NCBI RefSeq assembly: GCF_033110285.1
Contig: NZ_CP136995.1
Coordinates: 806,001-870,000 of the forward strand
Direction: 5' to 3'
DNA from: Ottowia sp. SB7-C50
GTDB taxonomy: Bacteria > Pseudomonadota > Gammaproteobacteria > Burkholderiales > Burkholderiaceae_C
Length of the DNA stretch: 64,000 bases
Below, piece after piece: positions 1,060 through 27,155 of this stretch (positions are counted from its first letter, which is position 1; every line of letters begins with the position of its first letter). A program made the translations under genes and the position numbers. The notes beneath the pieces are model-generated. The model was not told the DNA's origin. It saw only the letters and a list, made by a program, of their open reading frames with translations, and ran no database searches.

Positions 1060-1204
1060 CGAATGTTGCTTCGCGCCGACAGTGTCGATGCGCTGTCGTC
1101 CGGGCGCTTCGCGCTTTTATTTTGATAGCAAAGTCAATTATGGCGCCCGTCAACCGCCGCCTGTCAGCGGCATGGACGGCGCACTGTGCTACATTCACCC
1201 AGTC

Positions 1205-1276
1205 ATGAAAACGCGCGTCGCTTTCGGTTTTTACTTTTGGTTCTCTGTCCTCGGCGGACGAGAGGCGAACGTGTAA
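1205..1276 (+). CDS. Candidate aromatic-rich leader peptide of the aroG attenuator (23 aa)
   Basis: A 23-codon ORF starts with ATG at 1205 and ends with TAA at 1274-1276, about 95 bp before aroG. Its centre reads FGFYFWF: four Phe, one Tyr and one Trp within seven codons. This is the hallmark of a leader peptide through which ribosome stalling senses charged aromatic tRNA. A terminator hairpin follows at 1302-1333. There is no strong Shine-Dalgarno sequence. A possible extended -10 (TGC-TACATT, -10 hexamer 1190-1195) would put transcription start only a few bases before the ATG, so translation could be close to leaderless. The composition and the order leader-terminator-gene are seen directly; the function is inferred. 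Confidence 0.72.
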   Translation: MKTRVAFGFYFWFSVLGGREANV

Positions 1277-1333
1277 CCTGACAAGCGCACTTCCCGACAA
1301 GACCGCCGACGCGATGAGCCCGGCGGTTTTTTT
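1251..1333 (+). promoter_or_regulatory. Putative attenuator of aroG: antiterminator segment plus terminator
   Basis: Bases 1251-1257 (TCGGCGG), inside the leader ORF just after the aromatic codons, are fully complementary to 1303-1309 (CCGCCGA), the left arm of the terminator. The same segment can also be masked by a short local hairpin (GTCC at about 1247-1250 with GGAC at 1256-1259). This gives the usual three-way choice: a stalled ribosome frees the segment to pair with the terminator arm, while a fast ribosome lets the terminator form. Excess Phe, and perhaps Tyr or Trp, would then reduce DAHP synthase. The pairing model is inference from complementarity. Confidence 0.6.
1302..1333 (+). 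terminator. Intrinsic terminator in the aroG leader
   Basis: The arms ACCGCCG (1302-1308) and CGGCGGT (1321-1327) form a perfect 7-bp stem around a 12-nt loop, followed by a run of seven T (1327-1333). It lies upstream of aroG and downstream of the leader ORF, where an attenuator terminator belongs. Confidence 0.75.
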
Positions 1334-1371
1334 GTGTCTTTTTTCTTCTCCATTCTTCAAGGACCGATCCC

Positions 1372-2496
1372 ATGAACGCCAAGAACGCACAGGCCACTGC
1401 CGATGCCTGGGCCTCGTCGCCCGAACGAACCAGCCAGACCGACGACCAGCGCATCAAGGACATCACCGTGTTGCCCCCGCCCGATCATTTGATCCGTTTC
1501 TTCCCCATTCGCGGCACCCCGGTGGAGTCGCTCATCACCGACACCCGCAAGGCGATTCGCCGCATCATCGCCGGCAAGGACGACCGGCTGCTGGTGGTGA
1601 TCGGCCCTTGCTCGATCCACGACCCGGCCGCCGCCATCGACTACGCGAAGCGCCTGAAGGTGTTGCGCGACCGATACGCCGATTCGCTTGAAATCGTGAT
1701 GCGCGTCTACTTCGAGAAGCCCCGCACCACGGTGGGCTGGAAGGGCCTGATCAACGACCCGTACCTCGACGAAAGCTACCGCATCGACGAAGGCCTGCGC
1801 ATCGCCCGCCAGTTGCTGATCGAGATCAACCGCCTGGGCCTGCCCGCCGGCAGCGAATTTCTCGACGTCATCTCGCCGCAGTACATCGGCGACCTGATCA
1901 GCTGGGGCGCCATTGGCGCGCGCACGACCGAGAGCCAGGTACACCGTGAACTGGCCAGCGGCCTGTCGGCACCCATCGGCTTCAAGAATGGCACCGACGG
2001 CAACATCCGCATCGCCACCGATGCCATCCAGTCGGCCTCGCGCGGGCACCACTTCCTGTCGGTGCACAAGAACGGCCAGGTTGCCATCGTCCACACCGAC
2101 GGCAACAAGGACTGCCACGTCATCCTGCGTGGCGGCAAGGCGCCCAATTACGACGCCGCCAGCGTCGCGACCGCCTGCAAGGAGCTGGAGTCCTCCAAGC
2201 TGCCCGCCACGCTGATGGTCGACTGCAGCCATGCCAACAGCAGCAAGCAGCACGAGCGTCAGCTCGACGTGGCGCGCGACGTGGCCGCGCAGGTGGCCAG
2301 CGGTTCGCGCTGCGTGTTCGGGCTGATGGTCGAAAGCCACATTCAGGGCGGTGCGCAAAAGTTCACCCCCGGCAAGGACGACGCGGCAGCGCTGGAATAC
2401 GGCAAGAGCATCACCGACGCCTGCATTGGCTGGGACGGGACGGAAGTCATCCTGCAGTCGCTGTCGGACGCGGTCAAGGCGCGACGCGCGGGCTGA
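1372..2496 (+). CDS. aroG: 3-deoxy-7-phosphoheptulonate synthase (DAHP synthase, class I)
   Basis: This 374-residue protein is the AroF/AroG/AroH-type enzyme that condenses phosphoenolpyruvate and erythrose-4-phosphate in the first step of the shikimate pathway. Family signatures visible are LLVVIGPCSIHD near residue 80, EKPRTTVGWKGLINDP, SWGAIGARTTESQ, GFKNGTDG and VDCSHANSSK. The ATG at 1372 follows an AAGGA ribosome-binding site and matches the usual family N-terminus and length. Expression is probably controlled by the attenuator just upstream. Which aromatic amino acid inhibits the enzyme cannot be read safely from the sequence; the Phe-rich leader points to phenylalanine as the main signal. 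Confidence 0.96.
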   Translation: MNAKNAQATADAWASSPERTSQTDDQRIKDITVLPPPDHLIRFFPIRGTPVESLITDTRKAIRRIIAGKDDRLLVVIGPCSIHDPAAAIDYAKRLKVLRDRYADSLEIVMRVYFEKPRTTVGWKGLINDPYLDESYRIDEGLRIARQLLIEINRLGLPAGSEFLDVISPQYIGDLISWGAIGARTTESQVHRELASGLSAPIGFKNGTDGNIRIATDAIQSASRGHHFLSVHKNGQVAIVHTDGNKDCHVILRGGKAPNYDAASVATACKELESSKLPATLMVDCSHANSSKQHERQLDVARDVAAQVASGSRCVFGLMVESHIQGGAQKFTPGKDDAAALEYGKSITDACIGWDGTEVILQSLSDAVKARRAG

Positions 2497-25952: not shown

Positions 25953-27155
25953 ATGGATGCACTGAATCAGGGCGCGAACGCGCTGTTTGTGTTGCTCGGC
26001 GGGATCATGGTGCTGGCCATGCACGCCGGCTTTGCCTTTCTGGAACTGGGCACCGTGCGCAAGAAGAACCAGGTCAATGCGCTGGTCAAGATCCTGGTGG
26101 ATTTCTCGGTGTCGACGGTGGTGTATTTCGTCGTCGGCTACGGCGTGGCGTACGGCACGCACTTCTTCATTGGCGCCGAGCAGCTGGCCGCCAAGAACGG
26201 CTACGAGCTGGTCAAGTTCTTCTTCCTGCTGACCTTTGCGGCCGCCATCCCGGCCATCATTTCGGGCGGCATCGCCGAGCGCGCCAAGTTCTGGCCGCAG
26301 CTGATCGCCACCGCCATCGTGGTGGGCTTCATCTACCCGTTCTTCGAGGGCATTGCCTGGAACCAGCACTTTGGCGTGCAGGGGTGGATCAAGTCGCTGA
26401 CGGGGGTGGAATTCCACGACTTCGCCGGCTCGGTGGTGGTGCATGCCGTGGGCGGCTGGATCGCGCTGCCCGCCGTGCTGTTGCTGGGCGCGCGCTACAA
26501 CCGCTACCGCAAGGACGGTGGCGTCAGCGCGCACCCGCCGTCGAGCATCCCCTTCCTGGCGCTGGGCGCGTGGATTCTGGTGGTGGGCTGGTTCGGCTTC
26601 AACGTGATGAGCGCACAGACGCTGGACAAGATATCGGGCCTGGTCGCCGTCAATTCGCTGATGGCCATGGTCGGCGGCACGCTGGCGGCGCTGGCGCTGG
26701 GCAAGAACGACCCCGGCTTCGTGCACAACGGCCCGCTGGCCGGGCTGGTGGCGGTGTGCGCCGGGTCCGACCTGATGCACCCCATCGGTGCATTCGTGGT
26801 CGGCGCGGTCGCGGGCGCGCTGTTCGTGGCCATGTTCACGCTGGTGCAGAACCGCTGGCGCATTGACGACGTGCTGGGTGTGTGGCCGCTGCACGGCCTG
26901 TGCGGCACCTGGGGCGGGCTGGCGGCCGGCATCTTCGGCACGCACGCGTTGGGCGGCCTGGGCGGCGTCAACTTCGGCGCCCAGCTGATCGGCACCGTGC
27001 TGGGCGTGGCCTGGGCGGTGCTGGGCGGATTCGCGGTGTACGGCACGCTGAAGAAGCTGTTTGGCCTGCGCCTGTCGCAGGAAGAGGAGTACAACGGCGC
27101 CGACCTGTCGATCCACCGCATCACCGCCATGCCGGAGCGCGAAGTCACCTGGTGA
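25953..27155 (+). CDS. amtB: Ammonium transporter Amt
   Basis: A 400-residue inner-membrane protein with about eleven hydrophobic helices that conducts ammonia/ammonium. The family signature is GFAFLELGTVRKKN near the N-terminus. The twin pore histidines lie in VVVHAVGG and PLHGLCGTWGG; DPGFVHNGPLAGLVAVCAG and DLMHPIGAFVVG are also conserved. The start at 25953 skips 45 non-family residues of a longer frame. No signal peptide is evident at the N-terminus. No glnK is adjacent, unlike the common glnK-amtB pair. Confidence 0.94.
   Translation: MDALNQGANALFVLLGGIMVLAMHAGFAFLELGTVRKKNQVNALVKILVDFSVSTVVYFVVGYGVAYGTHFFIGAEQLAAKNGYELVKFFFLLTFAAAIPAIISGGIAERAKFWPQLIATAIVVGFIYPFFEGIAWNQHFGVQGWIKSLTGVEFHDFAGSVVVHAVGGWIALPAVLLLGARYNRYRKDGGVSAHPPSSIPFLALGAWILVVGWFGFNVMSAQTLDKISGLVAVNSLMAMVGGTLAALALGKNDPGFVHNGPLAGLVAVCAGSDLMHPIGAFVVGAVAGALFVAMFTLVQNRWRIDDVLGVWPLHGLCGTWGGLAAGIFGTHALGGLGGVNFGAQLIGTVLGVAWAVLGGFAVYGTLKKLFGLRLSQEEEYNGADLSIHRITAMPEREVTW

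Follow-up and report, generated by a model that had tools for sequence, protein, structure and literature searches.

What does a short open reading frame (ORF) crowded with aromatic codons do in front of a DAHP synthase gene? In the window (the whole 64-kb stretch of DNA analyzed), aroG occupies positions 1372–2496 of the plus strand and encodes a type I DAHP synthase, scoring 537 bits with TIGR00034 (cut-off 173) and 546 bits with the AroG model NF006723, slightly under the cut-off of the latter (568). It is preceded by the Shine-Dalgarno-like sequence AAGGA (1359–1363, plus strand), and the stop codon of the upstream gene, tldD, lies at 1057–1059. A reading of this DNA from its letters and ORFs (the sequence-only reading) had proposed a 23-codon leader ORF with the peptide motif FGFYFWF and a terminator before aroG. 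Both are present on the plus strand: the ORF at 1205–1276 (MKTRVAFGFYFWFSVLGGREANV; stop codon at 1274–1276), which has no Shine-Dalgarno-like site, and the terminator at 1299–1333. The sensor codons TTC GGT TTT TAC TTT TGG TTC, for F G F Y F W F, span 1223–1243 (plus strand). A short ORF rich in codons for products of the pathway, and predicted to be translated, therefore stands before the gene; a terminator lies between the two, together with a mutually exclusive antiterminator whose arms a ribosome could mask. From these sequence features, we conclude that the element is very probably a classical ribosome-mediated transcription attenuator of aroG, in which ribosome stalling, the transcription start and termination are predicted. 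The sequence-only reading did not mention the 1:2 hairpin, the promoter position or the conservation described below.

Aromatic-rich ORFs are a common property of the regions upstream of aroG homologues. We counted ATG ORFs of 8–60 codons in 100 such regions with a full 300 nt, a set that takes in distant relatives and the paralogue L002, and in 20 dinucleotide shuffles of each of 99 regions. An ORF with at least six F/Y/W in ten residues was found in 74 of the 100 regions versus 3 of 1980 shuffles, and one with at least five in 79 regions versus 27 shuffles, an excess on which we rejected a chance ORF. Elsewhere in the 64-kb window, another aromatic-rich ORF (26442–26607, plus strand) has six F/Y/W in ten, and two ORFs on the minus strand have five. 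Two start codons in the same frame would lengthen the leader ORF (GTG at 1046, ATG at 1171); both were rejected, since by reading the conserved part starts at the -10 box and the ATG at 1205.

Comparison among relatives is what places the promoter. The extended -10 element TGcTACATT (1187–1195, plus strand) predicts that transcription starts at about 1202–1204, on the leader AUG or beside it. When the best -10 hexamer in the 45 nt ahead of the leader ATG was taken from each of 55 window-type leaders, it ended 6–10 nt from that ATG in 53; L043 and L095 are the exceptions, and by reading L095 would fit if it started at an ATG that lies in frame six bases further upstream. A strong hexamer (5 points or more, the TG extension counted as one) was found at this distance in 52 of the 55, versus 18 of 2750 dinucleotide shuffles. 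The sequence-only reading is at odds with a transcription start downstream of 1276; consistent with it, none of the 55 window-type relatives had a strong -10 hexamer between the leader stop codon and aroG. A sigma-70 consensus scan of 800–1800, which required both -35 and -10 hexamers, identified no promoter-like site and no -35 match for the 1187–1195 element. The motifs GGAG, GAGG, AGGA or AAGG were found at the usual distance before none of the 55 leader ATGs, and before 44 of the 55 aroG starts. From the position of the -10 box and the lack of a Shine-Dalgarno-like site, transcription would start at or next to the AUG, and the leader mRNA is thus probably leaderless in window-type relatives. 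In Burkholderia- and Massilia-like records, the -10 box was read roughly 25–40 nt before the ATG, so that leaderlessness is not general.

Leader mRNAs that begin at the leader start codon are described for rnTrpL of Sinorhizobium meliloti (in the portions available of PMC7298713) and for several Streptomyces attenuators (likewise for PMC8079986). These leaders differ from that of aroG in their amino acids and target genes, and the leaderless start of the aroG leader is a prediction from promoter position. By analogy with rnTrpL/peTrpL, the terminated aroG leader RNA or its peptide might also act in trans; the probably leaderless RNA would be in line with this, but the peptide ends differ between families, and we regard such an additional role as unlikely.

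The codons that the attenuator would read can be seen in the leader alignments, where the aromatic block is conserved. Phe is present in all 77 window-type leaders and in all 46 others, Tyr in 77/77 and 43/46, and Trp in 73/77 and 26/46 (a tally that leaves out L037, L067, L103, L104 and the G280 leader). Judging from these sequences, the constant signal is Phe, with Tyr nearly so; Trp is nearly fixed within window-type leaders and optional beyond them. The signal of Phe, Tyr and Trp proposed by the sequence-only reading is thus supported for the first two, with Trp as an optional part outside window-type leaders. TTT makes up 138 of 240 Phe codons in 55 leaders versus 87 of 461 in their aroG genes, a preference that may help stalling or keep the stretch unstructured.

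The order and spacing of the aromatic residues differ among leaders (FYFYFWF, FFFGYFWF, YFFAYFW, FFTGYFYF), although a core, FYFWFS, is common to many window-type rows. Downstream of the block, 99 leaders were compared for the frame of the arm GGCGG (or GGTGG): 49 read it in frame 0, 47 in frame 2 and 3 in frame 1; the arm being read in all three frames, it is the RNA that is kept here, and not the peptide end. The sequences therefore indicate selection on the RNA at the arm and on the aromatic codons upstream of it. The leader of L100, which the 56-row window-type alignment leaves out, has nearly the RNA of the window and reads SPADER where the window reads LGGRE; by its sequence, it is a natural frameshift that separates selection on the RNA from selection on the peptide. 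This leader (minus strand of its locus, about 2646–2830) keeps the aromatic block and has SPADERLACC where the window has VLGGREANV. The aroG leader is a clean example of an RNA segment that persists through changes of reading frame.

TnaC is an arrest peptide that senses a free aromatic amino acid, and the short conserved core would suit a nascent aroG leader peptide that did the same instead of reporting tRNA charging. With aromatic residues that vary in order and spacing, a Trp that can be missing and downstream codons read in different frames, this seems to us very improbable.

The plus strand offers three alternative RNA structures. Segment 1 (1242–1250), defined by fold and pair counts, is the left arm of a 1:2 (anti-antiterminator) hairpin, in which TCTCTGTCC at 1242–1250 pairs with GGACGAGAGG at 1256–1265, with one bulged base; its fold is -10.2 kcal/mol, with a z of only -1.16. 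This is the classical 1:2 structure, and it shares part of segment 2 (1251–1265), of which 1256–1265 pairs with segment 1 and 1251–1257 with segment 3. Segment 3 (1303–1309) forms the antiterminator with segment 2 and, as 1303–1308, the terminator with segment 4. TCGGCGG (1251–1257) is the exact reverse complement of CCGCCGA (1303–1309), as the sequence-only reading had stated in calling it perfectly complementary to the left arm of the terminator. The same alternatives, 1:2, 2:3 and 3:4, make up the anatomy of the Escherichia coli pheL and trpL leaders.

The intrinsic terminator (1299–1333) consists of the 3:4 hairpin (1299–1330) and a T run (1327–1333), with the stem formed by ACCGCCG (1302–1308) and CGGCGGT (1321–1327). 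The 7-bp stem with seven T of the sequence-only reading is found as its core and T run, and the stem extends to 10 bp once A-U and G-U pairs are counted. The fold is -17.6 kcal/mol (z -4.16), and none of 200 shuffles was equally good. A simple terminator scan did not list it because its loop exceeds the 8-base limit of that scan. Searching 900–1700 with Rfam covariance models (E up to 5) gave three unrelated matches, all far under the gathering score, and no matching family among amino-acid leaders, T-box elements and riboswitches.

All 56 aligned rows have at least five T behind the hairpin, and the hairpin of the window ends 28 nt before the Shine-Dalgarno-like site of aroG and excludes it; control of aroG translation through sequestration of that site, in place of transcription termination, found no supporting point and is hardly credible. 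Least of all can we credit that the terminator belongs only to the end of tldD or is a constitutive damper, with an accidental ORF: a similar hairpin without an aromatic ORF, a second model hit that we rejected (24.9 bits, G000:C1:1384373), does occur elsewhere in the genome, but against it stand the excess of aromatic ORFs over shuffles, a conserved -10 box and a conserved ORF that lie between tldD and the terminator, and the antiterminator arm kept in three reading frames.

Compensatory changes in the aligned sequences support the attenuator's 1:2 and 2:3 pairings and, across clades, 3:4; the shuffles used here leave relatedness in place, and the figures are therefore not probabilities. For 1:2, 80.3% of cells were paired versus 73.2% shuffled, with 22 double-change cells versus 8.9 and a covariation score of 0.188 versus 0.107. 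Other measures of this hairpin were close to the shuffles: three pairs changed on both sides versus 2.2 (reached by 94 of 500 shuffles) and nine pair types versus 10.8 (reached by 486 of 500), and one of the nine pairs, 1246–1261, forms in just 11 of 55 rows. The aromatic codons and the pairing of 1251–1257 with 1303–1309 are kept among relatives, which is the conservation that the sequence-only reading had proposed to look for. For this 2:3 pairing, 87.2% of cells were paired versus 86.1% in the shuffles, sliding the arms gave at most 61.4%, and there were six double-change cells versus 2.2, all within one pair, the only one with changes on both sides (a value that 471 of 500 shuffles reach). 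The paired cells and the two-sided changes stay near the shuffles because both arms are nearly invariant.

Within the clade, the inner seven of the ten 3:4 pairs are invariant in all 56 rows, so that covariation of 3:4 was drawn from a cross-clade comparison. This set comprised 110 leader loci, of which 102 had both terminator arms in the form searched for and 98 also had GG[CT]GG in the leader (absent from the expected place in four leaders, L004, L078, L109 and L112). The first flanking pair was Watson-Crick in 94 of the 98 loci for 3:4 (52.6 shuffled) and in 73 for 2:3 (44.6 shuffled); among 57 distinct triples, the counts were 54 versus 30.0 and 36 versus 24.0. The second flanking pair was weak, with 67/98 versus 62.1 for 3:4 and 59/98 versus 52.5 for 2:3 (among distinct triples, 37 versus 32.2 and 29 versus 25.5).

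In the mechanism that we propose, RNA polymerase would start just past the extended -10 box (1187–1195), the mRNA would begin on the leader AUG or a few bases from it, and a ribosome would translate the leader. Scarcity of charged Phe-, Tyr- or Trp-tRNA would make the ribosome stall at 1232–1243 and cover segment 1; 1251–1257 would then pair with 1303–1309, no terminator would form, and aroG would be transcribed. If all charged tRNAs were plentiful, the ribosome would reach the stop codon and cover segment 2, segments 3 and 4 would form the terminator, and transcription would end at about 1333. If the leader were not translated, 1:2 would form first, and termination would again follow.

Folds of the growing transcript can be set beside these steps. 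Unmasked RNA ending at 1309 or 1315, before segment 4, kept 1:2. When the transcript to 1315 was masked to the ribosome edge, assumed to lie 11 bases past the start of the A-site codon, 2:3 formed at all six stall sites tried (1223–1241). The sites at 1223 and 1229 leave segment 1 unmasked and so lend no support to the stall mechanism; by the same geometry, stalls at Tyr 1232, Phe 1235, Trp 1238 and Phe 1241 hide segment 1 partly or wholly, and at 1241 the ribosome edge already covers two bases of segment 2. When the ribosome was placed on the stop codon, 3:4 alone remained in the masked fold. Full-length minimum-energy folds contained 3:4 under every mask tried, which in such models is expected for a kinetic choice but is no test of one.

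We searched for the element beyond the window with a covariance model, R1, built from 56 window-type leaders (alignment A2). At E up to 1e-6, the model matched 149 of the 150 family genomes, with a single hit in each, and 114 of the 115 genera; at least three of the 150 (G000, G002 and G027) also contributed rows to R1, and some may share species with its named rows. Twenty hits sampled down the list of 149 all lay directly before aroG with an aromatic leader ORF. G280 is the sole family genome that the model did not match; its aroG is preceded by a diverged leader, MPVLCFAFVFAYFPILPVSDDRER, with the same kind of -10 box; by reading, the core of its antiterminator has changed on both sides, to CCGACG in the leader and CGTCGG in the terminator. 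Of 29 genomes from the genus of the window, 21 had an aroG match (E up to 1e-150), and the leader was found in 19 of the 20 genes with upstream sequence. The exception is L099 (G011), where aroG lies about 50 nt behind the upstream gene, with neither a leader nor a model hit.

Across the order Burkholderiales in the GTDB sense (roughly the former betaproteobacteria), we identified 114 aroG homologues in 87 of 110 genomes and 37 families (E up to 1e-80). The element precedes 27 of them, in 27 genomes and 14 of the 37 families: 6 of 8 genes with at least 70% identity to the window AroG, 17 of 57 with 60–70% and 4 of 49 below 60%. Among the 113 loci outside the rows of the model, 26 score at least 30 bits, and 25 of these were also read by script as an aromatic ORF with a terminator. 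The count includes L167 (41.8 bits with the model; four F/Y/W in ten, under the ORF threshold) and leaves out L137, L177 and L214, which have ATG ORFs at the threshold without a terminator or a model hit. We found the leader in records of Polaromonas, Acidovorax, Variovorax, Hydrogenophaga, Rhizobacter and Comamonas, and also of Caballeronia, Paraburkholderia, Massilia, Rugamonas and Janthinobacterium; the Comamonadaceae, to which the sequence-only reading had looked for conservation, do keep it, but it spreads wider. Three Polynucleobacter and two Cupriavidus records were without the leader, and neither ORF nor model hit was found at L035, L036, L038, L039, L041, L055 and L099 (L024 and L102 are without upstream sequence). 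In the class survey, besides L001 and L103, one of the 28 loci nearest in sequence had the leader: L252 (G144), from the same class and outside the order, with a model score of 38.9 bits.

In a FastTree tree of 123 proteins, two DAHP synthase groups are well separated, and each contains genes with the leader. The leader label changes at least ten times on this tree, in which L045 was labelled as having none although it has a leader; five changes are forced by well supported branches, and the shuffled mean is 27.0. The distribution would fit an old element with several losses. The AroG homologues L048, L050 and L051 (64–68% identity) come from metagenome-assembled genomes (MAGs) labelled Planctomycetota, Verrucomicrobiia and Gemmataceae, respectively; in a quick tree they fall with sequences of Burkholderiales type, reflecting either transfer or mis-binned contigs. 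In a MAG labelled Anaerolineae (L067), an aromatic-rich ORF, MSRYFSFFSWYGYFAAGQVERAVVRPRDV, lies upstream of an aroG homologue and behind a TACAAT box; it precedes a strong hairpin without a T run, has no R1 hit, and is possibly part of an unrelated attenuator.

The closest precedent comes from Corynebacterium glutamicum. Its aroR-aroF attenuator (Neshat et al. 2014, according to the part of PMC11802643 available) has a leader peptide with Phe-Tyr-Phe before a DAHP synthase operon; the ribosome is reported to stall there under Phe limitation, in response to Phe and not Tyr. Both systems have an aromatic leader peptide before a DAHP synthase gene; the host of aroR-aroF, however, is an actinobacterium, whereas the aroG leader also has Trp and is conserved in many Burkholderiales. 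The same portion of PMC11802643 covers pheL-pheA and trpL-trpEDCBA of E. coli, which have a leader ORF like that of aroG; unlike them, the aroG leader targets the common entry step, combines several aromatic amino acids and, in window-type relatives, has no Shine-Dalgarno-like site before it. Putative attenuators are also listed for Vibrio DAHP synthase-tyrA operons, from Merino's database (Table 7 of PMC1173090, among the parts available), likewise predictions at a DAHP synthase gene, in gammaproteobacteria as hosts. Three Vibrio/Enterovibrio AroG homologues (L065, L070 and L081) had no ORF with at least four F/Y/W in ten within 300 nt, and may be other isozymes. Available passages of three further papers concern the possible origin of amino-acid attenuators in gammaproteobacteria (PMC3766115), the TrpR and TyrR regulons of this group (PMC5343134), and predicted regulatory RNAs upstream of Shewanella aroH and aroF (PMC2659441).

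Our literature search, which had most subscription papers outside its reach, found no aroG attenuator described in Burkholderiales and no described control of this committed step for the group. The statement of the sequence-only reading that no such case was known in this group agrees with the search, with the C. glutamicum attenuator to be set beside it. The mechanism is ordinary and classical; an aroG attenuator in Burkholderiales is apparently undescribed. On balance, we lean slightly towards a broader view, in which an old, undescribed attenuator family is the main control of shikimate entry in much of this order, with a peptide that senses Phe and Tyr, joined by Trp in the Comamonadaceae group, from a leaderless mRNA. 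If this is true, the family would fill in Burkholderiales the role that the repressors TyrR and TrpR have in gammaproteobacteria. The aroG attenuator is itself a probable single-copy regulator, near-universal in one large family, of the committed step of aromatic synthesis. The small leader could serve as a sensor for the charging of Phe, Tyr and Trp tRNAs.

Among the genes looked at in this genome, aroG alone, by its sequence, carries aromatic leader control. Upstream of trpE and pheA there was no aromatic leader (the best ORFs have three and one F/Y/W in ten, respectively), and a second DAHP synthase gene, 58% identical, is without one. This gene (L227, G000:C1:91870-92928) has directly upstream a short cysteine-rich ORF, which we take to be ferredoxin-like. 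The DAHP synthase domain has a third match in this genome; among the proteins that match this domain is KDO-8-phosphate synthase. Behind tldD, a terminator-like hairpin (1102–1116, plus strand) is no better than chance (one found versus 1.1 expected in shuffles), and, if real, would insulate the aroG leader from tldD transcription.
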